A DNA stretch of 33,810 nt, from positions 25,164 through 58,973 of the forward strand of contig WTWZ01000033.1 of NCBI GenBank assembly GCA_009773765.1. Reading direction: 5' to 3'. Positions within the stretch are counted from its first letter, which is position 1; each line of letters opens with the position of its first letter. The notes beneath the pieces were generated by a model, which was not told the DNA's origin, did no database searches, and was given only the letters and a program-made list of their open reading frames with translations. Origin of the DNA: Prolixibacteraceae bacterium. Its GTDB lineage: Bacteria > Bacteroidota > Bacteroidia > Bacteroidales > Prolixibacteraceae. A program made the translations under genes and the position numbers. Shown here piece after piece: positions 4,900 to 32,941 of the stretch.

Positions 4900-5711
4900 C
4901 TACACTAATTCAATAAACTTTTCCTGAATAAGCCGGGTGGTTTTGCCCGGTTTTCCGTTTCCAATCATGCTTTCATTAACCTGTATTACAGGTGTAACTT
5001 CGCTGCCATTTCGAGCATTTCGCGTTCAGAAAATTCTCGTTCCTCACAAGGAATCTGGTTTGCAGTACAAATTTCCAAAATCACATTTCGGGTAATTCCG
5101 GGCAAAATCAGGTTTGAAAGTGGCCGCGTAATTACAGTTCCGTTTTTAACCCCCAAAACACTTGAATGAGTAGCTTCGGTAACCATTCCATCACGGATTA
5201 AAACACACTCCCCCGCCCCGGCTTTTGCCGCTTTGTTGTAAAGCATTGTATTTGGAAGCAGCGAAACCGATTTAATATCACAACGTTGCCAGCGAATATC
5301 TTCATGCGTAATTACCCTGATTCCATTTTCGAGATTATCTTTAAACGAAGGCAATTCGAATGTAAAAGCATAAACGGTGGGTTTCACGTTATCGGGAAAA
5401 TAATGCACACGTTTGTGTTCCCCACGCGTGATTTGAAGATATACCCCGGCATGTTTGTCATACAGGTTATTTTTGGCGATGAGTTCATCAAAAACAGCTT
5501 CCAGCTTATCAGTTTCATTATATTCTATTTCAATTTCCGCAAGGCTTCTTTCCAGTCTTTTTAGATGTTCCCTATATCGAAAAGGCTTGCCGAAGTAATA
5601 CTTAACCACTTCATAAACTCCATCAGCAAAAATAAAACCCCGGTCATTGGGCGAAATTTTTGCTTTATCTTTCTCAATGAATTCGCCATTCAAAAAAACA
5701 ATTTCACTCAT
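4900..5711 (-). pseudogene. dat: D-amino-acid/branched-chain aminotransferase class IV gene, frameshifted
   Basis: A PLP-dependent class IV aminotransferase, closest in feel to D-amino acid aminotransferase. The reading frame from ATG at 5711 gives 241 residues ending at 4986, short of the usual ~280. Family features are present: N-terminal FLNGEFI, probable PLP lysine K147 in DIKSVSLLPN, E179 in MVTEA and the PLSNLILPGITR block (197-208). The frame then ends abruptly after EMLEMAAKLHL. In another frame the next bases encode SEVTPVIQVNE and then GNGKPGKTTRLIQEKF, ending at a TAG at 4900-4902, which is the normal C-terminus of this family. About 28 bases coding for the conserved DExFxxGTT segment appear lost at the junction near 5010. 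The start overlaps the nfo stop by 4 bases (ATGA). The protein probably lacks its phosphate-binding loop; activity is doubtful. Confidence 0.8.
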
Positions 5712-6550
5712 TTTTGCATGTTTTTAAGGAGTTCAATTTCTTCCGCCCAAAGTTCTTCGTTTGGTGTTTCCAAAATTAGCGGAATTCCGTCGAAACGGCT
5801 GTCGTTCATAATACATTCAAAAATTTCGAGCCCCAAAGTACCGGTTCCCAAGCTATCGTGCCGGTCAACCCGCGAGCCCAGTTCTTTTTTCGAACCGTTG
5901 ATGTGCATTCCTTTTAAATACTGAAAACCAACCACTACTTCAAATTCATGAAAAACCTTTTCAAATCCGGCTTTGGTTTTGATATCGTATCCGGCAGAAT
6001 AGGCATGGCATGTATCTATACAAACCCCCACCCGGCTTTTATCCTCAACCTTATCGATGATTTTCTTCAACTGATAAAACGAAAATCCCAGGTTACTGCC
6101 CTGTCCTGCTGTATTTTCAATTACGGCAGTAACTCCTGAAGTTTGGTTTAGCGCCCAATTAATTGATTCTGCAATTGTTGTTAGGCATTGCTCTTCCGAA
6201 ATCTGGTTCAGGTGGCTGCCCGGATGAAAATTAAGTCGATCGAGCCCCAATTGCCCGCAACGCTGCATTTCATCCAAAAAAGCATTTCGCGATTTTTGTA
6301 AAGCTTCCGGCTCAGGATGTCCTAAATTAATGAGATAACTGTCGTGTGGCAAAATCTGATGTGGCTGGTAACCATATTTTGCGCAACCAGACTTAAAAGC
6401 CTCAATAGTTTCCCGCGTTAAAGGTTTTGCTTCCCACTGCCGCTGGTTTTTAGTAAACAACGCAAATGCAGTCGCCCCAATCTTGTGTGCATTTACGGGT
6501 GCATTCTCCACTCCGCCCCCTGCGCTCACATGTGCCCCGATGTATTTCAT
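5708..6550 (-). CDS. nfo: Endonuclease IV (AP endonuclease)
   Basis: This zinc enzyme cuts DNA at abasic sites during base excision repair. The 280-residue protein aligns with the E. coli numbering, and all nine metal ligands are present: H69, H109, E145, D179, H182, H216, D229, H231 and E261. One oddity is G219 in MHINGSK, where the family normally has Asp (HxND); this residue is not a metal ligand. The ATG start gives the canonical [13 protein letters not shown]. Its stop overlaps the start of the broken aminotransferase gene by 4 bases, indicating translational coupling in the intact ancestor. It is divergent from the DUF4251 gene. Confidence 0.97.
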
Positions 6551-6665
6551 TTGTTATTCTTTTTGTGATAAACTTTCAAAATGCTATTCGAGTTTTCATT
6601 TTCGTGATTGCGAAAATAATACTTAAAAATTCAAAAATGGGCAACAAAGATGCAAGGCTGTGGTT

Positions 6666-6673
6666 TATATTTG
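6666..6673 (+). promoter_or_regulatory. Candidate -7 box (TATATTTG) for the DUF4251 gene
   Basis: TATATTTG matches TAnnTTTG in the divergent gap between nfo and the DUF4251 gene. It would leave a leader of about 100 bases containing a four-codon upstream frame (ATG at 6755, stop 6767-6769) that ends just before the gene start. No convincing -33 element is visible. Confidence 0.4.
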
Positions 6674-6780
6674 TACAATACATTTAATTCTGATTCTGCT
6701 TTAAATTATTTTAAAACAGGAGATAGCTTTATCAACTAATTTTTAAAAGAAAGTATGGAATTGTGGTAAATAAAAAAGAC

Positions 6781-7293
6781 ATGAAAAATTTATTGATTAT
6801 TGTAATACTGTTTTTGTCGGTTTTCGCGGTTACTGCGCAGGAAACCCAAAAGAAAAGCAAAAAAGAACTAAAGGCCGAAAAAAAGGCACAGCAAATTCAG
6901 GAAATTAAAGCAATTGTTGAAAGTAAAAATTTTGTTTTTGATGCCCGAAATGCTAATCCAATGAGTGCAAGGAGCATAAACCTGACTACAGATTATGATG
7001 TAAAAATCACTAACGATTCAATTTACTCCTATTTGCCTTATTTTGGCGTTTCGCACAGTGCGGTTTATGGTGGCACCGAAAGTCCGATGATTTTTAGCCG
7101 GCCGTTTGAAACAATCAGTTCTGAGGAAGTAAAACATGGCTACCTGGTAAGGGTTACCGTAAAAAATGGCAGCGACCGCCTTAATTTTTCCTTTCACATT
7201 TCTGCAACAGGTTCAGCAACATTAAGCGTTTCGAGTATGAACCGGCAGCCTATTTCCTACTTCGGACAAGTTGTGAAAAAAAAGGACAACTAA
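6781..7293 (+). CDS. DUF4251-family secreted protein
   Basis: A 170-residue protein of unknown function that I recognise as the Bacteroidota DUF4251 family. It has a signal peptide (MKNLLIIVILFLSVFAVTAQ), a short Lys/Glu-rich linker (about residues 24-45, KKSKKELKAEKKAQQ) and a beta-rich domain containing the typical SAVYGGTESPMIF segment and a C-terminal GQV. I chose ATG 6781 over the in-frame GTG at 6763 because it places the signal peptide directly at the N-terminus. No Cys follows the signal cleavage site, so it is periplasmic or outer-membrane-associated rather than a lipoprotein. The neighbours give no hint of a role. Confidence 0.85.
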   Translation: MKNLLIIVILFLSVFAVTAQETQKKSKKELKAEKKAQQIQEIKAIVESKNFVFDARNANPMSARSINLTTDYDVKITNDSIYSYLPYFGVSHSAVYGGTESPMIFSRPFETISSEEVKHGYLVRVTVKNGSDRLNFSFHISATGSATLSVSSMNRQPISYFGQVVKKKDN

Positions 7294-7300
7294 CTGAAGT

Positions 7301-7523
7301 TTATATTTCAAACGGTAACCTGCGGGTTAATTCAATTCGCTCAGGCAAAACTTCTGCCTGCATCACAATTACTTCAACGCCGCTTTTAACTGCAACTTTT
7401 CATCGATCCTGAATTGGGACAATGTGTAACTACCTCATTTCCATAATCCAACATTATGTCGGCCAAAAAACGTTTGTGGCGTTTTATTAATGTTCCATGT
7501 ACCAGTTTTTCCCGAAATTCCAT
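7301..7523 (-). pseudogene. sfsA: sfsA remnant (N- and C-terminal ends joined by internal deletion)
   Basis: SfsA is a DNA-binding/nuclease-like protein of about 230 residues named for sugar fermentation stimulation. From ATG at 7523 the frame reads [19 protein letters not shown], then LADIML and [14 protein letters not shown], matching the conserved SfsA start through residue ~44, and stops at 7386-7388. Shifted by one frame, bases 7392-7301 encode [20 protein letters not shown] and then ELTRRLPF before a TAA, which is the SfsA C-terminus. About 155 residues between the two are missing. The remnant lies 34 bases downstream of tsaD on the same strand, so it was probably the last gene of a tsaD-sfsA unit. 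It cannot encode a working protein. Confidence 0.88.
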
Positions 7524-7557
7524 TTTTTCATATTTTGAACTTTGACCATTAAACTCC

Positions 7558-8586
7558 CTACAACTGCGTTCTCGCGAACGGCACTACATTTTGCCCGGCA
7601 AATTGTTTATTCAGGTATTTAAAATAACCTGTAATTGCAATCATTGCCGCGTTGTCCATGGTATATTCAAATTTTGGGATTACCAGTTTCCACCGGTATT
7701 TTACGGCATTTTCCGTTAAAGCTTCCCTCAGCCCTGAATTGGCCGAAACACCGCCGGCAACCGTAATTTCCCTGATTCCGGTTTGTTTTGCGGCCCGTTT
7801 CAGCTTATTCATCAGGATTTCGATGATTGTGTATTGCAGCGAAGCACAAAGATCATTGATATTCTCGCTGATAAAATTTTCGTTTTTCCGCAGGTTATCC
7901 CGCAAAAAGTAAAGAAAGTTGGTTTTCAACCCGCTGAAGCTGTAATTTAATCCCGGAACGTCAGGTTTTGAAAATGCAAACCTTCCGGGATTTCCGGATT
8001 TTGCCAACCTGTCAACATGAGGTCCGCCAGGGTAAGGCAAACCCATTACTTTGGCGCATTTGTCAAAAGCTTCGCCGGCAGCATCGTCAATAGTTTGCCC
8101 GATTACTTCCATATCAAGATAATCGCGCACAAGAATGATTTGTGAATTTCCGCCCGACACGAGCAAACATAAAAACGGGAATTTGGGCTGATTAAATTCA
8201 ATTCCGTTTTCTTGTATAAAAAGAGCCAGAACATGCCCCTGCAAATGGTTTACTTCGATTAACGGAATTCCGGCAGCCAGCGAAAAACCTTTGGCAAACG
8301 AAGTTCCCACCAGTAATGAACCCAGTAATCCGGGGCCATTGGTAAAAGCAACTGCGTTTATTTCGTTTTTTGAAACTGCGGCCCTTTTCAAAGCCATATC
8401 AACCACCGGAATAATGTTTTGCTGGTGGGCGCGCGATGCCAACTCTGGAACAACCCCGCCGTATTCCCCGTGAACTTTTTGCCCGGCAACCACATTCGAA
8501 AGTATAATCCCGTCGCGGATTATTGCCGCAGAAGTGTCATCGCAGGATGATTCAATTCCCAGAATTGTAATTTTTTCTGATTTCAT
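7558..8586 (-). CDS. tsaD: tRNA threonylcarbamoyladenosine synthase subunit TsaD
   Basis: TsaD transfers the threonylcarbamoyl group to A37 of tRNAs that read ANN codons, acting with TsaB and TsaE. The 342-residue protein begins [20 protein letters not shown] with the ASKHA phosphate-binding motif, has the metal-binding His pair H115/H119 in NHLQGH, the conserved [12 protein letters not shown] (84-95), and DNAAM near the C-terminus. A purine-rich GAAAGAGA immediately precedes the ATG. It is divergent from the TamB gene, an arrangement common in Bacteroidota, and is followed by the sfsA remnant. Confidence 0.98.
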
Positions 8587-8633
8587 TCTCTTTCAGTTAT
8601 TAATACTTGTCGGTTAACAAATAATGGCAAGCC

Positions 8634-8667
8634 TTTTGTTTTAATGTTGCAAAAAAGTTTATGTTCG
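8634..8667 (+). promoter_or_regulatory. Candidate promoter for the TamB gene
   Basis: TTTTG (8634-8638) and TATGTTCG (8660-8667) are separated by 21 bases. They resemble the Bacteroidota -33 TTTG and -7 TAnnTTTG elements with one mismatch in the latter. They lie 31 bases before the TTG start of the TamB gene. Confidence 0.4.
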
Positions 8668-8698
8668 TTTCTTAAAAGGCAAAACTATCAAAAAAGGT

Positions 8699-13066: not shown

Positions 13067-13220
13067 CCGGATATTAAACTCCAATTGTTCATAACTCACC
13101 CGCCTGACACTGTTGCAGTCTGTAAGGATTTTAATTTAATGGTTATTTTTGCATGGTATAATATTTAAGATTTTAAGGCGTTTTTGAATTAGTTTTACAA
13201 AGGAATAAATAAAGAAACTC

Positions 13221-16678: not shown

Positions 16679-18973
16679 ATGAATTATAAATCTCTGTTTT
16701 TCACTGTTATCGCAACCATTCTGTTTTTACGGGCCAATGCGCAGTCGGTTGGAGTGGTTTTAAGCGGCGGCGGCGCTAAAGGAATGGCCCATATTGGGGT
16801 ACTCAGGGTACTTGAAGAAAACAATATTCCCGTTGATTACATCGCCGGAACATCTATCGGTGCAATTATTGGAGGATTGTATGCAGCCGGTTATTCCACC
16901 GAAGAAATGGAAGAATTGTTCAAATCCGACAATTTCTATTTCTGGTCAACCGGAAAAATTCAGAAAGATTACCGTTACTATTTTAAAATGCCAGAGGAAA
17001 CTCCTTACTGGATTGATATCAGTGTCGATAAACGCGATGAAAAGCTTAAACTCTTGTTACCAACCAATTTAATCCCCGAGGAACAAATGGACTTTGCGTT
17101 CATGGAATTGCTGGCAGCTACAAATGCCGCAAGCAAATACAATTTCGATAGCCTGATGGTGCCTTTTTTTTGCGTGGCAACCGATGTCAATAAAAGTGAG
17201 CCCGTAATTTTAAGATCAGGAGATTTGGGCGCCGCAATCCGCGCATCAATGACCGTACCCCTCTATTTTAAACCCATTACAATTGATGGAGCTTTGCTTT
17301 TCGACGGCGGGATTGTAAACAATTTCCCGCATGATGTTATGAAGGAAGTTTTTAACCCCGATATTATTATCGGCCATAAAGTTGCCAACGACCCAAAAGA
17401 GGCAGTTGCAGATGATTTAATGCGGCAAATTTCGAATATGGTTATGAGGCCAACCAATTTTGAGATTGCCGAAAAAAAAGGAATTGTGCTTGAAACTGAC
17501 CTGGAAAATGTTGGTTTACTGGATTTTAACAAGATTGATTTGGCAATGGTTGAAGGTATGAGAACAACCTATAATTCAATCGATAGCATCAGAAAGCTGG
17601 TTCAGCGAAGAGTTCCGCAAGAATCGGTCCAGGAAAAAAGAAAAAAATTCAACGCTAAAAAACCTGAGCTTTATTTCCAGAATATCCAGGTGGAAGGAGT
17701 TGCAGATCCAATGCAGCGTAAATATATAATTCAATCCATTAAAGGCAATTATGATGTAATTACCCTGGCCTCGCTGAAACAGGAATATTTTAAATTAATA
17801 GCCGATGAACACATTAAATCGATTATGCCCATTTCGAGATATAATAGGGAAACGGGTTATTACGATTTACATTTAAAAGTGGAACCGCAGAAAAAACTGG
17901 AAGTAAAGGTTGGCGGCAATATTTCAACAAAACCAATCAACCAGGGATTTGCCAGTTTTAACTACCGGACTTACAAAAGCCGGGCATATTCATTAAGTTC
18001 GAATATCTATTTCGGGCGTTTTTATAGTTCGTTTAAATTGGGCGCCCGGATTGATTATCCCTCCACACTTCCGTTTTATCTCGAAGGATATTCAACTTTT
18101 AACCGGTGGGATTTCTTCTCGTCAAGTTCAGAGCTTTTCTTCGAAGATGTGCGGCCCCCGTTTATTATTCAAAACGAAAATAGCACCCGGATTGAATCCG
18201 GTTTTCCATTAAAATTGCATAGCAAGGTTTATGGCGGAATTGCCTATTCGAACAGCAACGACCAGTATTATCAAACCGATGTTTTTAACAAGAGCGACGA
18301 GCCCGACAAAACAAATTTTTCTGCTTTTTCAACAGTGATCGGCATTGAAAACAACTCTTTAAATTACAAACAATTTCCATCGGAAGGGGCATTCCGTTTT
18401 TTTACCGTAAAATTTATTACCGGAAAAGAAACCCTAACCCCCGGAACTACATCATCCAATAACACACCTGTTTCCAATAAAAAACACAGTTATTTTTTGA
18501 TGCAGGCCCATTCTACACGTTTTTTTAATTTCGGGAGCAAATTTACACTTGGGTTAAAAGGTGAAGCGGTTTTTAGCAACAAAGATTTGTTCAGCAATTA
18601 CAGATCGGCAAAACTGTCAGCGCCGGGTTTCTACCCTACACCACACAGCAAATCACTATTTATCGAAAATCTTCACTCAAATAATTATTTTGCCGGTGGT
18701 TTAAATACAATTTACCACTTTAACTCTTCTTTGAACTTACGGCTGGAAGGTTACGGTTTTGTTCCTGTAAATGAAATACATCCCGAAAACTTTGGTAAAC
18801 CGGCACAAAAATCATTTATAAAAAACTACTATTTGCAGGGACTGGCAGCACTGGTTTACCAAACCGGCGCAGGACCGCTGAGTTTATCGCTCAATTACTA
18901 CGAAAAGGAAGATACGCAACTGTATTTTTTACTCAGTTTTGGTTATATCATGTTTAATAAACGGGGCTTTTAG
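16679..18973 (+). CDS. Patatin-like phospholipase fused to an outer-membrane beta-barrel
   Basis: A 764-residue outer-membrane protein. A signal peptide (residues 1-22, ending RANAQ) precedes a patatin lipase domain with the oxyanion hole SGGGAKG (29-35), nucleophile S59 in GTSIG, and catalytic D209 in DGG. Residues ~330-430 look like a POTRA-type linker, and the C-terminal ~330 residues are alternating beta strands ending in a terminal aromatic (GF), matching the BamA/TpsB-related surface-antigen barrel. This layout resembles the type Vd autotransporter PlpD, in which a phospholipase A is displayed or released by its own barrel. The Ser-Asp dyad is intact, so activity is expected. Its stop overlaps by 3 bases the stop of the convergent gene on the other strand. 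Confidence 0.92.
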   Translation: MNYKSLFFTVIATILFLRANAQSVGVVLSGGGAKGMAHIGVLRVLEENNIPVDYIAGTSIGAIIGGLYAAGYSTEEMEELFKSDNFYFWSTGKIQKDYRYYFKMPEETPYWIDISVDKRDEKLKLLLPTNLIPEEQMDFAFMELLAATNAASKYNFDSLMVPFFCVATDVNKSEPVILRSGDLGAAIRASMTVPLYFKPITIDGALLFDGGIVNNFPHDVMKEVFNPDIIIGHKVANDPKEAVADDLMRQISNMVMRPTNFEIAEKKGIVLETDLENVGLLDFNKIDLAMVEGMRTTYNSIDSIRKLVQRRVPQESVQEKRKKFNAKKPELYFQNIQVEGVADPMQRKYIIQSIKGNYDVITLASLKQEYFKLIADEHIKSIMPISRYNRETGYYDLHLKVEPQKKLEVKVGGNISTKPINQGFASFNYRTYKSRAYSLSSNIYFGRFYSSFKLGARIDYPSTLPFYLEGYSTFNRWDFFSSSSELFFEDVRPPFIIQNENSTRIESGFPLKLHSKVYGGIAYSNSNDQYYQTDVFNKSDEPDKTNFSAFSTVIGIENNSLNYKQFPSEGAFRFFTVKFITGKETLTPGTTSSNNTPVSNKKHSYFLMQAHSTRFFNFGSKFTLGLKGEAVFSNKDLFSNYRSAKLSAPGFYPTPHSKSLFIENLHSNNYFAGGLNTIYHFNSSLNLRLEGYGFVPVNEIHPENFGKPAQKSFIKNYYLQGLAALVYQTGAGPLSLSLNYYEKEDTQLYFLLSFGYIMFNKRGF

Positions 18974-20796
18974 TTCAGCCTTTTTCGATAACATTTCACC
19001 CAGTCTATTTCAAAACCTGCCGGCAATTGCGATCCGGGAACATCATTTACAACTATGATCGATGCATTTAAATGAAGTTTAGTATTCATCTCCGTGCTTT
19101 GAACGGTTATAATTTCAGTTTCGTTAATTTTCCAGGTAAAATTATTTCCCTGCTTCACAACTGTAAAAATGTACCAACCTTTTTTCAGGTTCGAAATATC
19201 CATACCGTCCACGTTTGCCTTGCCCGAATTTAAAGTTAAAACGCCAAGCCGGTTCTTATTTCCCATTTCAAGCAGGTTTACCCGCGGCATATTTTGTTCG
19301 CCAGCCAAATAAATCGAACTCACAATTTGCTTAACAGGGGCAAACCTGATTTTAGCCTCAATAATTCCGTCTTCAAGCCAACAACTTTTCCACGACGAAA
19401 TGATCCCTGAAGTGTAATCCATTTCAACCGGAATAAAACCAGCCGGCATTTTCCAAACTTTGCCTGCAGCTTTTTCTTTTCTGACTTCGATATTTAACTT
19501 GCCACTTATTTTAAGGTTCTTGCCATTGGTAAAAACGTAATTATCGCCAACCAGCGAATAGTTATCGCCCAGCAGTTTATCGGCCATATAACTTGTAGTG
19601 GCCCATTTTTCGGCATCGAGCTGAGGTTTTAAAAAGTCGTCTTCAAAAACCACCTCCCACGTTTTCAAATAGTCAAAAACCGAGGTGACTTTGTATTTGA
19701 AATATTTTACTATGTGCGGTAATTTCTTCATCGCCAGATATCTGTCCAGGCGGGTAAATTCTTCGGTTTTTTCCCACTTCTTTTTATCTTCCAGATAAGA
19801 TTTTCTTTCTTTAAATTCTTTTGAGCCTATCAGTTCTTCCAGTTCATCGTATCGCTTTAAATCAAACGATTCTACAACATCGAGGTAATTTTTGTACAAC
19901 GATGATTTTTCGAAACCAAGAAAGAATTTGATGTCCGGATCGGAACTCAGTTGCTTAAACCTGATATATTTTTTGTTTGCTTCACTTTTTTCAAACTTTT
20001 TATTATCCTTTAAAAAGGCTTCCTGTTTTTTAAAGTTTTCGCTTTCAACAAAGGCTTTTAGTTCATAATAGCTTTTTAACATGCGACTGCTTGCAGTTTC
20101 CCTGTAAAGCTTGAGTTTTTTCGATTCCTCAAATTTGAAATAAGACCTTATTTCGCGGTCGCGCTTTAAACTTTTGTATTCTTTTTGCTTTAATTTGTCT
20201 TTCCCGGGGGTGTTTCGCAGTTGAACAAAGTTTTTCAGTTTTTCCGATTTCCCGAATATTTCGTGCTTGTTCAGCAAATCAGATTTGTCCAGTTCTTTAA
20301 ATGCTTTAATGCCCGCCTTTTTTTCAACTTTTTTGAAATCAATCCAATGTTTTTCTTCAACCGATCCCTTAAAAACCTGTCCCAAAATCTCCTTTTTATC
20401 TTTGTCGAATTGTCCTTCACGCACATATTCAAAAAGTTGATAATATTCAGCAAGTTTCTCAGATGATTTGAATTTTTTAAACCTTTCCAGTTCCGGTGAC
20501 CTGAAAATTTTGAAGTAATTTTTTATGGCCCGTTTTTTCGTTAATACTTCAAATTCCTTTAACTGATTGTACTCTTTACTTCCTTTAAATTGTAGCGCTT
20601 CAATTTCAGTTTTTTTCTTTTTGAACTCGTCAGAATTGATTTCCTTCTCCAATTCCAGGTATTTTTTTAACTCTTCCGAGCTGTCAACTTTTTGAAATTC
20701 GAAGTAATCATCCTGAAGTATTTTGCGCTGCTTTTCAACAGTTTCCACCTGTTTTAACCTACCTGAAAGCTGAAGTATGAAAATCTTAAATGACAT
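18970..20796 (-). CDS. Five-repeat charged protein with an inactive GH16-like C-terminal domain
   Basis: I do not recognise a named family. From ATG 20796 (preferred over an in-frame TTG at 20826) the protein has 608 residues and no signal peptide. Residues ~40-369 hold five degenerate repeats of about 72 residues, beginning near 40, 111, 184, 237 and 310, each opening with a form of SEKLKxYxEL, then EFKKxK, a KFEKSE block, and an IKxYFKFExS close; the third copy is shortened. Residues ~380-608 resemble a concanavalin-like GH16 domain (start WEVVFEDDF, then LDAEKW, GIISSWKSCWLEDGIIEAKI, FEIDWVKCYR end). Where GH16 has ExDxxE, this protein has RVNLLE (505-510), lacking the nucleophile, so it is probably a binding rather than a hydrolytic domain. 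Lys/Glu content is very high. Probably cytoplasmic. Confidence 0.75.
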   Translation of the reverse strand: MSFKIFILQLSGRLKQVETVEKQRKILQDDYFEFQKVDSSEELKKYLELEKEINSDEFKKKKTEIEALQFKGSKEYNQLKEFEVLTKKRAIKNYFKIFRSPELERFKKFKSSEKLAEYYQLFEYVREGQFDKDKKEILGQVFKGSVEEKHWIDFKKVEKKAGIKAFKELDKSDLLNKHEIFGKSEKLKNFVQLRNTPGKDKLKQKEYKSLKRDREIRSYFKFEESKKLKLYRETASSRMLKSYYELKAFVESENFKKQEAFLKDNKKFEKSEANKKYIRFKQLSSDPDIKFFLGFEKSSLYKNYLDVVESFDLKRYDELEELIGSKEFKERKSYLEDKKKWEKTEEFTRLDRYLAMKKLPHIVKYFKYKVTSVFDYLKTWEVVFEDDFLKPQLDAEKWATTSYMADKLLGDNYSLVGDNYVFTNGKNLKISGKLNIEVRKEKAAGKVWKMPAGFIPVEMDYTSGIISSWKSCWLEDGIIEAKIRFAPVKQIVSSIYLAGEQNMPRVNLLEMGNKNRLGVLTLNSGKANVDGMDISNLKKGWYIFTVVKQGNNFTWKINETEIITVQSTEMNTKLHLNASIIVVNDVPGSQLPAGFEIDWVKCYRKRLN

Positions 20797-20992
20797 AGAT
20801 CTGCATTTAGTTTTTTTGATTTTCAAAAATAAAAATTAAACCCATTAAATTCTAATTTTAACAGTTTTCCTTTCCAATATAATTATTTCTGATTTTCACC
20901 TATCCAGAGTTTTGAACATATTCAGTCCGATTTTGGGTTTTACCAAAACTTAGCTGTTTATATTTTCCCAGCCACATAATTGTCTATTTATC

Positions 20993-24361: not shown

Positions 24362-24418
24362 AATAAAAAACCCGTAAAAAACATTGTAAAACACACTATT
24401 ACAACACTTTATACGGGT
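24362..24418 (-). terminator. Hairpin with T-run between zapA and rny
   Basis: On the minus strand ACCCGTA (24418-24412) pairs with TACGGGT (24376-24370), with a further TTGTAA/TTACAA stem inside (24404-24399 with 24389-24384). A TTTTTTATT run follows. It reads as an intrinsic terminator after zapA, or as a structured leader that tunes rny expression. Confidence 0.7.
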
Positions 24419-24449
24419 ATCGATAAATATATTCTCGTTTGCAACTAAT

Positions 24450-24752: not shown

Positions 24753-24758
24753 CAGCCA

Positions 24759-25052
24759 TTACTTATTGAGTAATGCAATACACTTGTCAATTTCCCGTAT
24801 TAATTTATTAATTTTTTGTTTAGCTTCCCTGTTTTCATCAACACCCGATAAAATATGGGTTGCCAAACGCAATTGTTCAATTTTCCGATTGAGTTCCAGC
24901 TTTTCCTTCTTTAACAATTCAATCTCGTGCTTTAAGTTTAACACGTTCTTTTCCAGCACCTTTTTTTCGTTTTCAATCTCTGCAAACGCTTCAAAAAACT
25001 GCTGTACGTTTACTTTTAAATTATTCAGAAGGATTTGCTCTTCCTCAGTCAT
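24759..25052 (-). CDS. Small coiled-coil protein, ZapB-like
   Basis: A 97-residue protein, nearly all predicted coiled coil: heptad-like Leu/Ile spacing runs from about residue 10 to 70 (for example VLEKNVLNLKHEIELLKKEK), and a short C-terminal helix ends IREIDKCIALLNK. It has no signal peptide or membrane helix. Size, heptads and position directly before zapA suggest a division-ring accessory protein comparable to ZapB, but this is inference from context; coiled coils give no specific homology. A TAACTTTG box 19 bases upstream makes it the first gene of the operon. Confidence 0.8.
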   Translation of the reverse strand: MTEEEQILLNNLKVNVQQFFEAFAEIENEKKVLEKNVLNLKHEIELLKKEKLELNRKIEQLRLATHILSGVDENREAKQKINKLIREIDKCIALLNK

Positions 25053-25071
25053 CGTAGCTGCATTTCACGGG

Positions 25072-25079
25072 CAAAGTTA
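25072..25079 (-). promoter_or_regulatory. Candidate -7 box (TAACTTTG) for the coiled-coil-zapA-rny operon
   Basis: On the minus strand TAACTTTG matches TAnnTTTG exactly, 19 bases before the ATG at 25052. The leader would be roughly 13 bases. The -33 element is weak. Confidence 0.5.
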
Positions 25080-25200
25080 ATATTTTTAGCCTATTGTAAA
25101 AGTGTTTAAAAAATATTGAACGAAATATTACAAACACCCGTCTGATAAATAAACCGGAAAAGTTAAATTTACCCGCAATTCTAAATAAAACATGACAGTT

Positions 25201-26910
25201 ATGAAGAAGTTTTTTTTGATACCGGCAATGTTTTTTGCTTCGTATTATGTTAGCGCCCAGGAGATTTATTATGTCGATCCGGTTAATATCCCAATTTTTT
25301 TAAGTGGGAGTTTTGGTGAATTACGCGACAATCATTTCCACTCGGGTATCGACATAAAAACACAGGGAAGAGTTGGAATACCTGTATTCGCAGTTGCCGA
25401 TGGATATGTTTCGCGGATTTCGGTTTCGCCAACGGGTTACGGAAATGTTGTTTACATTGAACACGACAATGGCACAACTTCAGTTTACGCGCATCTAAAC
25501 CAGTTCAGGCCCGACATTCAGGGTTACATCCGAAATATCCAGTACGAACGAAAATCTTTCCAGGTGGATGTTCCGGTTTTGCCCGGTATTTTTCCGGTGG
25601 CAAAGAATGAAAAATTTGCGTTAAGCGGCAATTCAGGCAGTTCGCAGGGACCACACCTGCATTTCGAATTTAGAAATACAAAAACTGAAGAACCGTTAAA
25701 TCCTCTGAAACTGGGTTTTTATTTCATTAACGACAATACGCCCCCAACTATTTATTCAGTTCAGATTTTACCGCTTTCGTCAGAATCGCATGTAAACTTT
25801 AGCAATAATAAAGTGATTTTTGATGTGGAATTGGTTGACGGAAAGTACCGGATAAAAAACAATCAGATAATTCCGGTTTACGGCCAAATCGGGTTTGCTG
25901 TTGAAGCCTACGATTTTGTTGATGGTTCGGCAAATAAATGTGGTATAAACTCTCTGGAACTGACTGTTAACGGTATTCTTTACTCAGTATTCGATATCAA
26001 CCGCTTCTCGTTTGCCGAATCAAAATATATCAACAGCTACATTGATTATGAAGAGTTTGTGGCCTCGGGCCGAAGGTTTCAGAAAACATTTATTGAACCC
26101 TGCAGTAAGCTCCGGAATTTTAATTTTACCGAAAGCAACGGGATATTCGACCCCGGGTTCGAAGGTGTACACCCGGTAAAAATTGAACTGAAAGATTCGA
26201 AAGGAAACAGCGCAGTACTCGAATTTTCGGTGGAAGGCAAATACCGCGAAATGCCTGAAGTAAAAGAAGATTTTACATCGGTTTTTGTTTGCGGTCAAAC
26301 CAACCTGTTGAAAACCGATGAGTTCAGCATTGAACTGCCGGAAGATGCTTTATATAATAACCTCCTTTTCAAATATGAACAACAAGTTGCTGCAAACGGA
26401 TATTTTTCATCCATACACAAGATTCATAATAAAACCGTTCCGTTACACAAAAACGCCAAAGTAGCTGTAAAAACAAAAAACTTACCCGAATCACTGGCCG
26501 AAAAAGCATTGCTTGTAAATATTAATCCTGAAAACGGGAAATTTAGCTCCACCGGAGGAAGGCATGAAAATGGCTGGATTACCTCTGATATAAGGACTTT
26601 CGGTAATTATGCCGTTCGCGTAGATACTTTGCCGCCAACCATTTTACCACTTAGCATTGCCAATAAAACTTCGCTCACCGAACCCGAAAAACTCAGGTTC
26701 GAAATTAAAGATGACCTTGCCGGAATAGGAAGCATTGAGGGTTTGATTGACGGGAAATGGGCGCTGTTTGAATACGATGCAAAAAACAACCTGATTACCC
26801 ATTATTTTGATGCCGAACGATTCGAGATGAACAAACAGCACAGTTTTAAACTTACGGTAACCGATAACCGCGGAAACAGTTCTGTGTATGAAGCCTCATT
26901 CCAAAAATAG
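25201..26910 (+). CDS. M23-family metallopeptidase (LytM domain), secreted
   Basis: A 569-residue exported protein. A signal peptide (MKKFFLIPAMFFASYYVSAQ) is followed directly by an M23 domain with the zinc ligands H47 and D51 in HFHSGID, and the HLHFE motif (H152, H154), all present, so it should be an active peptidoglycan endopeptidase. The rest (~170-569) is a long beta-rich region of immunoglobulin-like modules, typical of large Bacteroidota M23 proteins. An in-frame ATG at 25192 would add three residues (MTV); I prefer 25201, where the signal peptide starts. Its 3' end overlaps anmK by 23 bases, linking cell-wall cutting with recycling of anhydro-sugar. Confidence 0.92.
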   Translation: MKKFFLIPAMFFASYYVSAQEIYYVDPVNIPIFLSGSFGELRDNHFHSGIDIKTQGRVGIPVFAVADGYVSRISVSPTGYGNVVYIEHDNGTTSVYAHLNQFRPDIQGYIRNIQYERKSFQVDVPVLPGIFPVAKNEKFALSGNSGSSQGPHLHFEFRNTKTEEPLNPLKLGFYFINDNTPPTIYSVQILPLSSESHVNFSNNKVIFDVELVDGKYRIKNNQIIPVYGQIGFAVEAYDFVDGSANKCGINSLELTVNGILYSVFDINRFSFAESKYINSYIDYEEFVASGRRFQKTFIEPCSKLRNFNFTESNGIFDPGFEGVHPVKIELKDSKGNSAVLEFSVEGKYREMPEVKEDFTSVFVCGQTNLLKTDEFSIELPEDALYNNLLFKYEQQVAANGYFSSIHKIHNKTVPLHKNAKVAVKTKNLPESLAEKALLVNINPENGKFSSTGGRHENGWITSDIRTFGNYAVRVDTLPPTILPLSIANKTSLTEPEKLRFEIKDDLAGIGSIEGLIDGKWALFEYDAKNNLITHYFDAERFEMNKQHSFKLTVTDNRGNSSVYEASFQK

Positions 26911-28018
26911 TATCAAAGTTGTAGGACTGATGTCGGGCACCTCGCTCGACGGGTTGGATTTGGTTGCTGTCGAATTTTGGCAAACGGGCGAAAAATGGCA
27001 ATTCAAAATAGAGGCTGCTGAAACCCTTGAATATTCTGCTGAACGGAAAAACATGCTCAAAAATGCACCGGAACTTTCAGGTATGGAATTGATTCAACTT
27101 CATACCGAATATGGCCATTTTCTTGGTAATGAAACCAAACGGTTTATTGCACAAAACCACTTTCAACCCGATATTGTTGCCTCTCACGGACATACCATTT
27201 TTCACCAGCCCGAAAAAGGGTTTACTTTTCAGGCGGGCAGTGGTTTCGAAATTGCCGCGATTACAGGAATTACCACGGTTGCCGATTTCCGTTCGGGCGA
27301 TGTGGCGTTGGGCGGTCAGGGAGCACCGCTGGTCCCGGTTGGCGACCGGTTTCTATTTTCTGAATACGAATATTGCCTAAACCTGGGAGGTTTCGCAAAT
27401 ATTTCGTTTGAAAAAAATGAAAAAAGAGTTGCTTTCGATATTTGCCCGGTAAACATTGTTCTGAACTATTTCGCAGAAAAACAGGGATTTGCATTCGACA
27501 AAAACGGCGAACTGGGCCGAAATGGAAAGGTTAATACTTACTTGTTGGAAAAACTCAACCAACTGGATTTTTACCTGAAAGAACCGCCAAAATCGCTTGG
27601 ACGAGAATGGGTTGAACAGGTTTTTATGCCGGTTTTAAACGATGTTGAAACTTCGGCAAATGACAAACTGAGAACTGTTTACGAACATATTGCACAACAA
27701 ATTTCAGGAATAGTTTCAGGCGTAGAGAAAGGCGGAGGCGAAGGCGGAGAAAAAGACAGAGAAAGAGAAGGAGGCGGAGGAAAAATGTTGGTAACGGGCG
27801 GGGGCGCTTTCAATGTGTTTTTAATTGAGTTAATTTCAGAAAAAACTCAGATTGAACTGGTAATACCTGCCAAAGAAATCATCAATTTTAAAGAAGCGCT
27901 GATTTTTGCTTTCCTGGGAGTCCTGAAATTCCATGGAGAAATTAACTGTCTGACTTCGGTAACGGGGGCAAAATGTGATAGTTCTGTTGGAATTATGTAT
28001 TTTAGCAGCAATATTTAA
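26888..28018 (+). CDS. anmK: Anhydro-N-acetylmuramic acid kinase
   Basis: AnmK phosphorylates and opens 1,6-anhydro-MurNAc released by cell-wall turnover, giving MurNAc-6-phosphate. The 376-residue protein has the N-terminal GLMSGTSLDGLD, SHGHTIFH, the DFRSGDVALGGQGAPLVP block, NLGGFANIS and the ATP-binding TGGGAFN. Just before the last motif lies an unusual charged Gly/Glu/Lys/Arg segment (residues 282-299, bases 27731-27784) encoded by a purine-only stretch with GGCGGAGG-like units; I do not expect it in this family. It may be a slippage-born loop between two strands and might be tolerated. The start ATG lies inside the end of the M23 gene. Confidence 0.95.
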   Translation: MKPHSKNSIKVVGLMSGTSLDGLDLVAVEFWQTGEKWQFKIEAAETLEYSAERKNMLKNAPELSGMELIQLHTEYGHFLGNETKRFIAQNHFQPDIVASHGHTIFHQPEKGFTFQAGSGFEIAAITGITTVADFRSGDVALGGQGAPLVPVGDRFLFSEYEYCLNLGGFANISFEKNEKRVAFDICPVNIVLNYFAEKQGFAFDKNGELGRNGKVNTYLLEKLNQLDFYLKEPPKSLGREWVEQVFMPVLNDVETSANDKLRTVYEHIAQQISGIVSGVEKGGGEGGEKDREREGGGGKMLVTGGGAFNVFLIELISEKTQIELVIPAKEIINFKEALIFAFLGVLKFHGEINCLTSVTGAKCDSSVGIMYFSSNI

Positions 28019-28052
28019 AATATATTACAATGACAATTTCCGAACAAATACA

Positions 28053-28232
28053 TTGCATCTTTCAATAATAGCTGAACTGGATTGGGATAATTTTTACTAT
28101 GTGAGTTGTCCGGTTTTTAAAAGTTCTCATTCTTATAGTTATACAATCGTCGAAGCGTTAAACAGCATCCGTGAAGTTATTGAAATCTGTGTAGAGAAAA
28201 GGGAAAAGCCGGTGAGATTAACCGTTTTGTAG
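28053..28232 (+). pseudogene. HicB-like antitoxin, probably decayed
   Basis: The frame encodes a 59-residue segment from TTG 28053 that fits the HicB antitoxin N-terminal fold: LHLSIIAELDWDNFYYVSCP followed by a conserved-type EALNSIREVIEICVE helix. In HicB these are the strand-strand-helix of the RNase-H-like domain that blocks HicA. There is no good start: the frame runs back through a GTG at 27975 inside anmK, and the nearby ATG at 28030 is in another frame. The adjacent toxin is clearly dead, so the antitoxin is probably a relic, although a short solitary HicB is possible. HicB can lie before HicA in such operons. Confidence 0.55.
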
Positions 28233-28287
28233 GTTTCAGGGAAATGCAGGTTACAATTAAAAACGCTGCAGTTTAATTATTTTAGTT

Positions 28288-28490
28288 ATGCCTCAGTTAC
28301 CTGTTATTTCCGGAAAAGAATTTTAATATTTCTAAAGTCTTTGGTTTTGTTGTTGCCCGTATTAATGGTTCAAACCACCGCTTAAAACAACCTGACGGCA
28401 GGATGGCCGAATTGTTTATGTGAACAACCAAAGTTGTTGCCACAGTTCTGCTAAACTCAAGTTTTCAACTAGCTATCGATGTTTTCAAAT
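28288..28490 (+). pseudogene. HicA mRNA interferase remnant
   Basis: HicA is a small double-stranded-RNA-binding-fold toxin that cuts mRNA. ATG 28288 starts MPQLPVISGKEF, the standard HicA opening, then stops at TAA 28324-28326. One frame over, 28322-28420 continue FNISKVFGFVVARINGSNHR and LKQPDGRMAELFM to a TGA; this is the HicA core, where the family has KGSHxxxxHPDGR. The catalytic His of GSH is Asn here. A third frame segment (KLKFSTSYRCFQIF, up to ~28490) resembles the LKxGTLRxILRQ end. Two frameshifts and a lost catalytic residue make it inactive. It lies 55 bases after the HicB-like frame. Confidence 0.7.
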
Positions 28491-28656
28491 TTTTGTCATG
28501 TACTTAGTTCCCGTAAATTCATTACAATGCAAATCGGATTCCATAATTGTGAAAAAAATACAATTCAAATGAACTAAACCCGGTTTTTTTGAATGGGAAG
28601 AATATTCAGCAGGTGAAATTAAAGCCATAATCTGAACACCCTCAAAATAAAAAGTT

Positions 28657-28995
28657 TTAAAACAAATACTGGCCATCCTGAACAAGGAAATCGCCGCGAT
28701 GATTTTGCAGTATGTCGATGCATTTCTGCAAATCGGTTGGACGTAAAACTATAACCGCGGTGTCTTCACTGTTCGAAAATGCATACATATATTCTATAAA
28801 GACATTTCCCTCATTGAGGAAATTAAGCATTTTCGCCAGTCCGCCAGGGCGGTTTGGTGTTTTTATCAGAATTACATCGGTGGTTTGAACTGCAAATTTG
28901 TTCTTTTTCAATATTTCCCTTGCCCTGTCAGGATCAGAAACAATCAAACGAAGAATTCCAAAATCGGATGTATCGGCAATGGTAAACGCCGACAT
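28657..28995 (-). CDS. ACT-domain protein, N-terminally shortened
   Basis: A tandem ACT protein of amino-acid-binding type, 112 residues as read. Two ACT modules are visible: the tail of the first (SAFTIADTSDFGILRLIV, SDPDRAREILKKNKFAV) and a complete second (LIKTPNRPGGLAKMLNFLNE, then VFIEYMYAFS and VLRPTDLQKCIDIL). Family members in Bacteroidota normally start about 28-30 residues earlier with a strand and helix of the type xxKQLSVFLENKPGR. Here the codons just upstream still read CAGIN, the normal lead-in to MSAF, but a TAA follows 6 codons before the ATG. The first strand-helix is therefore missing, probably deleted. The remaining protein may not fold as a full dimer. Confidence 0.75.
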   Translation of the reverse strand: MSAFTIADTSDFGILRLIVSDPDRAREILKKNKFAVQTTDVILIKTPNRPGGLAKMLNFLNEGNVFIEYMYAFSNSEDTAVIVLRPTDLQKCIDILQNHRGDFLVQDGQYLF

Positions 28996-29062
28996 GTTAA
29001 TACCGGCACACGATAATTATATATAATAAGATTCGGTTGATTTTTCAAATTTAGCCTTTCTG

Positions 29063-30304
29063 TCAGAATTTATAGGCAATGGAAATCATATTTCTGAAAT
29101 TGGTTACATTCTCAACATTTACAACTTTGCCTTTGTTTTTCAGGTCTGTCTGGCCATATCCTGCTGTTGTCCAGCTAAATTCGCAACCAAACATAAAATT
29201 CTTGAAATTGTAAATCAGTTGGGGCGAGATTTTATATATATTGTCAATTTCCGAAGAACCTGACATGCCATAAAACGGACCGATTGGGTTCTCTGAAGTT
29301 CCCATATTTTTCAGGTAACCAACATACATTCCAACCTGCCATGTTTTTCCATAAACTGCATTAATCCAGTTGTAAACATGGTTTAACGGTGTGTAAGTTT
29401 CGGCGCCTGTCAAGGGATTTAATGAGGCTACAGCATAACCGCTTGGAAGGAGGTTTTCGCAAACATTCTGCCCGTACATCGATTTTGCCATTACAACAAA
29501 TTTTTCTTTTGAATATTTCAGATAAGCCAGCGCAGCCCAGGTATTCAGCTTTTCTTTTGCAACAAAAGTACCCGAAGCGCCGGTGGTTGATGTACGCGGC
29601 TGAACCGATTTCCAGTCAACACCTGCTCCCAAAACCCAGTTTTGATTGTAGTACTGGATTTGTCCATGCATATTTGGAACTACAGCATCGCGCTGATAAT
29701 GATAGGTTTTACCTGAAGGGCCTGTATTACTGTAATCGAATTGGTAAACCGCAGCAGCTATAAAATCGAAATTGGAAGAAAGATTGTAAGTAAACCGAAC
29801 CTGGGGGCTACGGTTAAATACCTGAAAGGGCAATCCTGTATTTTCGTTTAAAACCATCGGAAATACCTTTTCGATAAATGCTGGGTGCCATGTGCGGCCA
29901 ACCAATAGTTTCGATTTTGGCCAGTTTATAAGTGTGTAGGCGTGGCGTAACCTAAGCGTGGGCGTTTGTATGCCACCTGTAAAATCAATTTCTATTAAAG
30001 CGCTGATTTTTGATTTCCCCATTTCAAGCCCTGAAAAGGTAGTCCCTAACCTCGAAAAGGTATTCATCAACTTTGCACTTGGCTGAGAGTTAATATCCTC
30101 TCCCTTAACATCATAAACAGGCTTTAAAGGGTATATCTCCAGCAATTGGTCACTGGCGTCGAGATTCCGGCGAGCATCGAAAATAAAATCGTTACGTACG
30201 AATCCGGAAAGGTCAACCTTTATGTTTTTAGCAGTAATAAATCCCTGAGGGAAGGTATTGAACGAAAGAAAAATCAGAACAGATAATAAAGTAATTTTAT
30301 ACAT
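29063..30304 (-). CDS. Outer-membrane beta-barrel porin (DcaP-like)
   Basis: A 413-residue outer-membrane protein. It has a signal peptide (MYKITLLSVLIFLSFNTFPQ), then alternating amphipathic strands rich in aromatic and polar residues, with girdle-type segments such as ALIEIDFTGG, RLRHAYTLINWPKSKLLVGR and the C-terminal NFRNMISIAYKF ending in Phe, the BAM recognition signal. Length and strand pattern fit the DcaP-like/porin group of Bacteroidota. It is divergent from nrfH across 252 bases, so it could be a pore for nitrite or another small anion and share regulation, but this is inference from position only. Confidence 0.85.
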   Translation of the reverse strand: MYKITLLSVLIFLSFNTFPQGFITAKNIKVDLSGFVRNDFIFDARRNLDASDQLLEIYPLKPVYDVKGEDINSQPSAKLMNTFSRLGTTFSGLEMGKSKISALIEIDFTGGIQTPTLRLRHAYTLINWPKSKLLVGRTWHPAFIEKVFPMVLNENTGLPFQVFNRSPQVRFTYNLSSNFDFIAAAVYQFDYSNTGPSGKTYHYQRDAVVPNMHGQIQYYNQNWVLGAGVDWKSVQPRTSTTGASGTFVAKEKLNTWAALAYLKYSKEKFVVMAKSMYGQNVCENLLPSGYAVASLNPLTGAETYTPLNHVYNWINAVYGKTWQVGMYVGYLKNMGTSENPIGPFYGMSGSSEIDNIYKISPQLIYNFKNFMFGCEFSWTTAGYGQTDLKNKGKVVNVENVTNFRNMISIAYKF

Positions 30305-30487
30305 GGCCAGTAGTTAATAAATGGTTTATTTACGTAAAAAGCTGTTTTTTAAGCTGATTTAATTCAGGTTGTAAAAATAATATTATTGACAAAAATATGT
30401 TTAAAAAAGGGAATAGTTGACGAACATTACCCGCTTATTTATTCTGATTTTAAATAACCGGGATTATCATAGTCAAACTTGAGTTTC

Positions 30488-30503
30488 TGTAACATTAGTT
30501 ACA
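30488..30503. promoter_or_regulatory. CRP/FNR-type palindrome upstream of nrfH
   Basis: TGTAACATTAGTTACA is a perfect 6-4-6 palindrome in the nrfHA-porin divergent gap. Its centre (30495.5) falls about 41-43 bases before the start site predicted from the -7-like box at 30525-30532, the classic class II activator position. It resembles sites of CRP/FNR-family regulators of nitrogen-oxide genes. Confidence 0.6.
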
Positions 30504-30524
30504 AGTCTGAAGTATATAGATATT

Positions 30525-30532
30525 GATATTTG
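30525..30532 (+). promoter_or_regulatory. Candidate -7-like box (GATATTTG) for nrfHA
   Basis: GATATTTG is one base off TAnnTTTG. A start site near 30537 would give a ~20-base leader for nrfH and place the palindrome at about -41.5. A weak core promoter fits one that needs an activator. Confidence 0.4.
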
Positions 30533-30556
30533 CCAACTAAATAACCGAATTTAATT

Positions 30557-31132
30557 ATGCTCAAAAGAATTCTTCCACCACCCAAATGGCGATTTCCGGT
30601 AATGATACTGGCTGCTGTTTTTACAGGTTTATTTCTTTATACATTTTATATATCGAAAGCACATTCTTATTTGTCCGACAATCCGCAAACCTGCACCAAC
30701 TGCCACATCATGTCGCCGCAATATGCCACCTGGAACCGCAGTTCGCATCGCGAAGTAGCCCATTGCAACGACTGTCACGTACCGCATGACAATGTAATCA
30801 ACAAATACTATTTCAAGGCAAAAGACGGTTTGCGGCATTCAACTATTTTTACCCTGCGCCGCGAACCGCAGGTGATTTTTATTTTGGACGAAGGCGCCGA
30901 TGTGGTTCACAACAACTGTATCCGCTGCCATTCTAATGTACTGAAAGACCCCAAACTTGCTGCAACGGTTTATAACCATGATGTTCACATGACCGGCCGT
31001 AAGTGCTGGGAGTGTCACCGCGAAGTGCCCCACGGAAGAGTGAACAGCCTTTCAAGTGTTCCAAATGCGAGGGTTCCGCTTCCGGAAAGCCCTGTTCCTG
31101 ACTGGATTAAAACATTAATCAATAACAAATAA
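30557..31132 (+). CDS. nrfH: Cytochrome c nitrite reductase small subunit NrfH
   Basis: NrfH is a membrane-anchored tetraheme cytochrome c that passes electrons from the quinol pool to NrfA. The 191-residue protein has one N-terminal membrane helix (about 14-33) and four CxxCH heme sites: CTNCH (46-50), CNDCH (70-74), CIRCH (121-125) and CWECH (150-154). This is the NapC/NirT-type layout. The ATG is 12 bases before the nrfA gene region begins and follows a regulatory palindrome. It is the first gene of the nrf operon and is divergent from a porin gene. Confidence 0.97.
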   Translation: MLKRILPPPKWRFPVMILAAVFTGLFLYTFYISKAHSYLSDNPQTCTNCHIMSPQYATWNRSSHREVAHCNDCHVPHDNVINKYYFKAKDGLRHSTIFTLRREPQVIFILDEGADVVHNNCIRCHSNVLKDPKLAATVYNHDVHMTGRKCWECHREVPHGRVNSLSSVPNARVPLPESPVPDWIKTLINNK

Positions 31133-31144
31133 AAACCTGACAAA

Positions 31145-32668
31145 ATGAGTTCGATTTTAAAAATTACAGAAAAACGTCCCTGGCTGGCATGGTTGATTTT
31201 TTTTGCAACAGTGGTTGTAGTGTTTTTACTTGGCCTGCTTGCATCTTCCATTGTGGAGCGACGGGCTGAAGCAGCTTATGTAAACGTTCCAAAAACAAAA
31301 GTAAACCAGTTAGATCCTCGTAATGAAGTTTGGGGCGCCAATTACCCACGCGAATTTCAATCGTATTATGGCACCGCCGATACCACATTCAGAAGTAAAC
31401 ATAACGGCAGCGCTATGGTTGATATGCTTGAAGAATCGCCGGCAATGGTGGTTTTGTGGGCAGGTTATGGTTTTTCGAGAGACTACAAACAGGGTCGCGG
31501 CCACTATTATGCAGTTACTGATATGCATAATTCATTACGGACAGGAGCGCCTAAACTTCCAACCGACGGGCCACAGCCTTCTACCTGCATGACCTGCAAA
31601 AGCCCCGATGTTCCCAGGCTGATGAATGAAAAAGGAGTGACTGCCTTTTACACCGGAACCTGGGCAGAGCTGGGCCCCGAAGTTGCAAATCCAATTGGCT
31701 GCGCCGACTGTCACGATGCTGAAACAATGAACCTGGCCATTACACGCCCAGCTTTGGTTGAGGCTTTCGAAAAAATGGGAAAAGACATAAAAAAAGCAAG
31801 TTACCAGGAAATGAGAAGTTTGGTTTGCGCCCAATGCCACGTTGAATATTATTTCGATAAAAAAGTAGCCGAAGGGGCAAACTATCTAACCTTCCCCTGG
31901 AACAACGGTTTTTCGGCCGAAGCGATGGAAGAATATTACGATAACATTGAATTTTCAGACTGGACACACACTGTAAGCAAAGCGCCGATGATAAAAGCCC
32001 AGCACCCCGATTATGAAGTGTACATGACTGGAATTCACGCGCAAAGGGGTGTTTCATGCGCCGACTGCCACATGCCCTATAAAAGCGAGGGCGGACAAAA
32101 ATTCACCGATCACAAAATGCAATCGCCTTTAAACAATATTTCCAGTTCGTGCCAGGTGTGCCACCGAGAGGAAGCCGCTACATTAATGGCCAATGTTTAC
32201 GAAAGACAAGATAAAATTATTGAAAACAGGGTAAAACTCGAAGAAATACTTGTTCGCGCGCATGTTGAGGCAAAAAAAGCATGGGACTTAGGAGCAAATG
32301 AAAATGAAATGAAGGAAATTCTGAAGGGAATACGCCATGCACAGTGGCGCTGGGACTACGCTGCAGCCGGACATGGAAATTCTTTCCATTCGCCGGTTGA
32401 AACCGGCCGCGTTATTTCAACAGGAATTGCAATTGCACAGGAAACCCGTATTAAACTGGCGAGGTTACTTGCAAGCAAGGGCTTTAACCAGGAAGTTACG
32501 TACCCCGATTTATCGACAAAAGCAAAAGCACAGGAATTTATCGGCCTCGACATGAAAAAACTAAACAAGGACAAACAGGATTTCCTGAAAAATATTGTAC
32601 CACAGTGGATTAATACTGCAAAAGATCGCGAGGCAACTTACGATAAAGTTTTTTATAATAAAGAGTAA
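31145..32668 (+). CDS. nrfA: Ammonia-forming cytochrome c nitrite reductase NrfA
   Basis: NrfA reduces nitrite to ammonium with six electrons in the periplasm. The 507-residue protein has an N-terminal anchor or signal (about 13-34) and five heme sites: the catalytic Lys-ligated CMTCK (148-152), then CADCH (186-190), CAQCH (228-232), CADCH (305-309) and CQVCH (336-340). The CxxCK site is the diagnostic feature. All sites are intact, so the enzyme should be active. It begins 12 bases after nrfH. Cytochrome c maturation genes are not in the window, and the gene immediately downstream is a collapsed barrel remnant. Confidence 0.98.
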   Translation: MSSILKITEKRPWLAWLIFFATVVVVFLLGLLASSIVERRAEAAYVNVPKTKVNQLDPRNEVWGANYPREFQSYYGTADTTFRSKHNGSAMVDMLEESPAMVVLWAGYGFSRDYKQGRGHYYAVTDMHNSLRTGAPKLPTDGPQPSTCMTCKSPDVPRLMNEKGVTAFYTGTWAELGPEVANPIGCADCHDAETMNLAITRPALVEAFEKMGKDIKKASYQEMRSLVCAQCHVEYYFDKKVAEGANYLTFPWNNGFSAEAMEEYYDNIEFSDWTHTVSKAPMIKAQHPDYEVYMTGIHAQRGVSCADCHMPYKSEGGQKFTDHKMQSPLNNISSSCQVCHREEAATLMANVYERQDKIIENRVKLEEILVRAHVEAKKAWDLGANENEMKEILKGIRHAQWRWDYAAAGHGNSFHSPVETGRVISTGIAIAQETRIKLARLLASKGFNQEVTYPDLSTKAKAQEFIGLDMKKLNKDKQDFLKNIVPQWINTAKDREATYDKVFYNKE

Positions 32669-32694
32669 TCCGTTTATAACCAACAAAATAAAGA

Positions 32695-32941
32695 ATGTTT
32701 AAACGCTGTTTTACTGGCAGCCTGCACCATTATTGCCCAAACCCTCAAAGCACAATTTTCCATCGGCACCGAACTCGACCTTACCTTTTCATACAAAGTT
32801 CATGAGGTAGTTTCAATTAGTGCGGGCTGGTCAACCATGTTTGCCGCCGAAAGTAAGAAACTGCTGAAATGCGGCGATTATGAAACCGGCAACCACCGGG
32901 CGTACATCATGCTTTCGGTAACTCCATCGTTTATTAAATAG
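32695..32941 (+). pseudogene. Outer-membrane barrel gene collapsed by internal deletion (alginate-export-like?)
   Basis: ATG 32695 starts MFKR, then the frame is lost; one frame over the sequence continues AVLLAACTIIAQTLKAQF, a signal peptide, and passes straight into SIGTELDLTFSYKVHEVVSI, SAGWSTMFAAES and AYIMLSVTPSFIK, ending at TAG 32939-32941. The latter is a typical barrel C-terminus: three amphipathic strands and an aromatic-containing end. The barrel body, hundreds of residues in such proteins, is missing. The strand style reminds me of the alginate-export family proteins that often follow nrfA in Bacteroidota, but this identity is tentative. It lies 26 bases after nrfA, so it was probably its third operon gene. 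Confidence 0.7.

Follow-up and report, generated by a model that had tools for sequence, protein, structure and literature searches.

The parallel loss of conditionally dispensable genes among related bacteria is a general pattern. Bacterial genomes are, moreover, said to be subject to a deletional bias, a notion reportedly developed by Mira, Ochman and Moran in 2001 and by Kuo and Ochman in 2009. The stretch of DNA analysed here (33,810 nucleotides, called the window; bases 25164-58973 of contig 2 of a draft Prolixibacteraceae genome) carries remnants of four genes: the D-amino-acid transaminase gene dat, sfsA, the second of two ACT genes (ACT2) that flank a PaaK-like ligase gene in relatives, and a porin-like (barrel) gene adjoining nrfA. 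We consider it probable (roughly 0.85) that each of these four dispensable genes was inactivated in this lineage by a spontaneous deletion of its own: 25 bp in dat, ~470 bp in sfsA, ~2.1 kb at ACT2 and ~966 bp in the barrel gene. The resulting pseudogenes are ordinary in kind. They resemble the deletion-type bacterial pseudogenes of deletional bias (Kuo and Ochman 2010, PMC2916853) in that each carries a single inactivating deletion between intact neighbours; they differ in the extent of the loss, about two thirds of sfsA and about four fifths of the barrel gene. The parallel-loss pattern is also matched, as sfsA and the ACT1-PaaK-ACT2 module were lost in more than one species with different breakpoints; unlike in that pattern, no known shift in host or habitat is linked to the losses here.

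The genome holding the window has 4.27 Mb in 118 contigs, a completeness of 99.9% and a contamination of 1.3%. The right end of the window is the end of its contig. Loci were read in the assembled sequence and compared with the assemblies of relatives from a genus set of 37 genomes that includes the window's own, with up to 36 others serving as comparison (relatives are labelled G001, G016, G050, etc.; L numbers denote their sequence stretches). By dat, the named records nearest to this genome are genomes from metagenomes (Bacteroidetes, Prolixibacteraceae), with Mariniphaga sediminis at 69%, and judging from these dat records the genus is probably Mariniphaga-like, within the Prolixibacteraceae.

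The dat pseudogene (4903..5711, minus strand) was delimited by tblastn with full-length proteins of relatives (277-291 aa) and by DNA alignment. Codons 1-235 share a frame, the final ~38 codons (about 4903-5016) are read in the next one, and alignment to seven relatives places a single 25-bp gap in the window gene. The dat frame is open over 278-304 aa in 21 of 24 same-genus genomes, split across two contigs in one and without ortholog in two; the G007 protein clears the TIGR01121 D-amino-acid transaminase cut-off. A frame of 241 aa is still open in the window. The alignment shows that the deletion takes out a conserved stretch ending in GT immediately before GSEVTP, which we take to be the loop that binds the phosphate of pyridoxal phosphate in this fold. 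The sfsA pseudogene (7304..7526, minus strand) was recognized as two pieces by a blast-type comparison with the 230-aa proteins of relatives: codons 1-44 (7392-7523) are joined to codons 199-230 (7304-7399) in a different frame, and ~470 bp are missing as measured against G001, whose intact protein clears the TIGR00230 sfsA cut-off. Among the 37 genomes sfsA is full-length in 32, decayed with two TGA codons in G011, without match in three, and reduced to the two pieces in the window's genome. In both dat and sfsA, colinear remnants flank one missing segment. An inverted pair of a purine-rich/pyrimidine-rich repeat is found after dat (4789-4884), not at a deletion junction; its segment 4830-4887 has ten further matches within the same genome.

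The barrel gene (32695..32941, plus strand) was compared with the proteins and DNA of relatives, in which the gene following nrfA encodes 406-445 aa. It consists of a start-like piece with a frame change near the start codon, a 966-bp deletion (322 codons, in frame, measured on G011) and the last 59 codons (32762-32938), whose residues are 66% identical to those of G011. The left remnant is limited to the start-like piece and a match of 13-15 bases. Full orthologs are present in 19 of the 37 genomes, and in another the gene runs into a contig end; the window's genome has the stub and 16 have none, three of these 16 carrying only distant paralogs. The first-pass annotation had described one form at three loci, a correct N-terminus, a junction and a correct C-terminus in another frame. 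This is clear for dat and sfsA but not for the barrel gene: its 966-bp deletion preserves the reading frame, and the frame change close to the start is a second lesion. Further along, a 55-bp segment (32985-33040) just before the gene at 33044, which by our own reading is PQQ-like, is 79-93% identical in nine genomes of the genus among the matches listed, away from the nrfA matches.

The ACT2 gene (28657..29016, minus strand; ACT_8, PF19571) was assigned from relatives' proteins and its profile match. It retains residues 24-142; the start and the first ~23 codons are gone, and an open frame of 112 aa from an internal ATG remains. Over 119 codons it is 84% identical to G016 and 87% to G044. The gene is full-length in 20 of 24 relatives, two of these carrying a flag for a TAA within the match. 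The lesion belongs to a ~2.1-kb deletion that took two neighbouring genes as well. The gene order is porin, ACT1, a 432-aa PaaK-like ligase and ACT2 in G015, G011 and G016, and porin, ligase and ACT2 in G044. In the window the porin is intact and leads almost directly to codon ~24 of ACT2, with ~2.1 kb missing relative to G044 and G016 (junction blastn); ACT1, the ligase and the ~23 codons of ACT2 were removed. The left side of the deletion, defined from the gene order in these four relatives and the junction blastn, is the spacer that follows the porin (29017..29065, no strand assigned). The ligase scores 612 bits against TIGR02155 PaaK, below its cut-off of 646, and is therefore named PaaK-like only; no match to it was found at an E-value of 0.001 anywhere in the window's genome. 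The porin beside this locus is broken in G016 (L121:12481-13725) and G001 (L149:8358-9587) at different codons, with one match staying in a single frame throughout.

None of the relatives examined shares the junctions of the window, and a DNA search of the 36 other genus genomes with 28019-33040 gave, among the matches listed, none spanning the ACT or barrel junction. Neither the short dat nor the short ACT form, which the first-pass annotation had named as a possible finding in relatives, occurs in any of 24 genomes. The nearest relative by RecG is G050 (85% identity), which stands beside the window's genome in the RecG tree with a support of 85/86, below the starred level. G050 retains dat, sfsA and the barrel gene whole, which places the three losses after the split from it. 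Changes unique to this genome were counted against G016, G022 and G044 rather than the nearer G050. In dat they number 16 versus 24 (G022) or 26 (G016) with G001 as outgroup, and 16-19 versus 20-22 with G009 or G011. The latter outgroups give 5-6 versus 5-7 for ACT2 over more than 100 columns; for the short sfsA pieces the counts are 3-5 versus 4-7, and intact controls span the same range, from 10 versus 25 (nfo) to 32 versus 25 (porin). Since the remnants do not evolve faster than intact genes, the losses appear to fall late on this branch; this absence of acceleration in dat, ACT2 and the short sfsA pieces fits late loss and is no proof of release from selection.

As for mechanism, the genes would have been under weak or conditional selection when they were lost, the deletions would have arisen by illegitimate recombination or slippage, in which short imperfect repeats may have taken part, and the leftover pieces would no longer be functional. 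Relatives show the same process, several of these genes having been lost there with different breakpoints. For each breakpoint pair the matching bases were counted with a relative standing in for the ancestor. Seven of 10 bases match at the breakpoints of sfsA, of the barrel gene and of nfo in G022, a relative in which 735 bp of nfo were deleted in frame, fusing 19 residues to the last residues (5.8-9.5% of null positions are as good). The five junctions tested combine to p = 0.045, which weakly favours short-repeat deletion. The nfo gene is also gone from its usual place beside dat, the only place inspected, in G050 (L305:12053-13481), as in G022.

The density of such scars was assessed with a uniform test in which an open frame below 0.88 of the median relative is called short. 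A place was testable when its best hit was at least 50% identical, the missing part did not run off the stretch and the frame was closed. Frame length was used as criterion because the coverage of the ACT gene (0.84) exceeded the 0.7 limit of coverage-based surveys. A 353-kb sample of the genome yielded 71 testable places, other genes of the sample, hicBA among them, falling outside the test. Short places amount to 4 of 23 in the window and 1 of 48 in the rest of the sample (one-sided Fisher p = 0.035, post hoc). The unusual density put forward by the first-pass annotation is thus present but only marginal, the window having been chosen for this feature. Seven relatives have 16 short places out of 437 (G016 1/59, G022 3/65, G001 4/56, G011 3/76, G009 0/83, G046 3/79, G045 2/19), a count raised by the choice of their stretches partly around the same loci; two of the G001 rows are one deletion, and in the porin rows of G016 and G001 stops interrupt the frame. 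These counts bear on whether the whole genome is being streamlined, as the first-pass annotation had suggested, or pseudogenes are formed en masse, in a host-restricted or bottlenecked lineage. Such a process would agree with the genome size (4.27 Mb versus 4.9-7.8 Mb in 23 of the 30 other genus genomes with a completeness of 90% or more and a contamination of 5% or less) and with the 5 of 71 short places in the sample, more than the relatives' proportion. It appears improbable, however, as G016 and G022 from the same clade have genomes of 4.3 and 3.9 Mb, short places outside the window are limited to the single case above, and the coding density of the sample including the window (87.8%; 90.0% in the window itself) lies inside the 83.9-90.4% of 15 relatives (samples of 16-236 kb). 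Genome-wide decay was rejected on this normal coding density. Relaxed selection, also proposed at first, fits these particular genes, because sfsA decayed in G011 too and the ACT-PaaK module was lost repeatedly.

Draft assembly into 118 contigs, a window that ends with its contig and junctions known from assembled sequence would all be compatible with an assembler that collapsed or skipped real sequence at the four loci. We regard this as very unlikely: junction repeats in the relatives have only 3 to about 10 imperfect bases, and repeats of 3 to ~10 bases fall below the usual assembly word size. The barrel gene carries a second frame change, and scars of the same form with other breakpoints occur in separately assembled relatives. 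Assembly collapse was therefore rejected as the main cause. The deletions are taken as real from these scars, from the full-length genes that the comparison with close relatives recovered and from the absence of the junctions in the relatives examined. It is also unlikely that some short forms work, with the ACT protein of 112 aa or the transaminase of 241 aa expressed and under selection. Their frames are open and show no acceleration, but their absence from the 24 relatives, the removal of the conserved stretch before GSEVTP from dat, and the removal of the ACT2 start codon together with two genes upstream argue against it. Separate spontaneous deletions thus remain the preferred explanation, and several points weigh against it. 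The RecG branch of this genome is long (0.097 changes per site), and "recent" has a meaning only relative to that length, with the nearer G050 absent from the rate comparison. The repeat test, in which relatives substitute for the ancestor, is weak, and dat (5 matching bases, 0.32 of null positions as good) and ACT2 (3 bases, 0.76) do no better than chance. The junctions were read in assembled sequence only. The open 112-aa and 241-aa frames may retain residual function. Finally, relatives have short places too (the 16 of 437), part of which may be sequencing errors.

The parallel loss of the module is the only part of this case that is above the ordinary, and it is a modest one. A ligase ortholog is present in 29 of the 37 genomes, complete in 28 and truncated by a contig end in the other, with 85-94% identity to the G015 query in 28 of the 29 and 71% in G023; RecG is 77-85% identical to the query from this genome. 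The ligase is absent from this genome, G001, G019, G021 (which has a 48% paralog only), G022, G045, G048 (89% complete, the absence not being read at the locus) and G050. These eight absences need seven changes on a RecG tree of 30 genomes, seven of the 37 lying outside it; six changes are forced by well-supported branches. The absences are not clustered on the tree (314 of 500 shuffles are as low). If the count is restricted to the six absences that were seen at the locus, reading the tree by eye gives at least five losses. Breakpoints differ wherever the ligase loci were read. In G001 the start of ACT1 is joined to the end of ACT2. G045 has ACT1 whole, ~21 residues from the beginning of the ligase (judged by eye), ligase residues 357-381 and the end of ACT2. 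In G050 and G022, prephenate dehydratase comes next after ACT1, with the ligase and ACT2 both missing; in G019 these two are gone as well and other genes lie between. No fossil turned up in G022, G019 or G050, and loss in these three is for that reason inferred. The final deletions of this genome and its neighbour G050 differ, since part of ACT2 survives in the former and ACT1 in the latter; the two may share a first loss of the ligase alone.

The first-pass annotation had counted five deletion-eroded loci. Comparison with relatives bears out dat, sfsA, the ACT gene and the barrel gene but not hicBA (28026..28430, plus strand), a possible remnant with several stops known from weak profile matches: a HicA-like piece (E 0.0032, 18 bits) and a HicB_lk piece (E 0.1, 13 bits), neither reaching the Pfam cut-offs of 27. 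It has no defined junction, no measurable deletion and no full-length ortholog match in the HicA loci of relatives. Against 16 loci around genus HicA genes (two being the same place) there was no DNA match at E 0.01, and the sole protein match below 1e-3 (E 4e-4) is to a 54-aa frame of G016, opposite in strand to the HicA of that locus, and may hint at kinship. Elsewhere the same genome has four HicA matches that pass the cut-off and contain no stops. The locus is at best a probable old remnant. Elsewhere in the window, anmK (26888-28018) has a low-complexity GGGEGGEKDREREGGGGK stretch near residue 280 in an otherwise complete family match, and 18970-20826 encodes a 618-aa protein with abundant charged repeats and no Pfam match at E 0.001. 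In relatives, a ~95-bp dispersed repeat (L206:5116-5211) has, among the matches listed, at least about 26 copies in G001 and at least about 19 in G046, and a ~55-85-bp repeat (L198:14010-14093) is listed at no fewer than seven places in G022, three of them at contig starts. In a relative assembled as one contig, stops interrupt recG (G006:C1:4613472-4615569), through gene loss or sequencing error.

Nothing on gene decay was seen among the papers listed on Mariniphaga genomes, judged by titles and the starts of abstracts. Other papers listed were general pseudogene literature or held nothing on this genus, and no paper was found that joins PaaK and indolepyruvate with aromatic amino acids in Bacteroidetes. 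The window exemplifies an early stage of gene loss by ordinary deletion in a group that has received little study, in which kb-scale deletions leave readable stubs. Gene stubs in draft genomes thus need not be assembly errors. We give even odds to the reading that ACT1-PaaK-ACT2 beside the porin is an all-or-nothing trait of this genus, with a ligase highly conserved where it is kept, deleted at least five times with different breakpoints and leaving fossils in three species; the module would then be niche-dependent, act on aryl acids and allow habitat to be predicted from its presence. The repeated loss of this strongly conserved ligase module raises the testable question of which habitat or diet accompanies its keeping.
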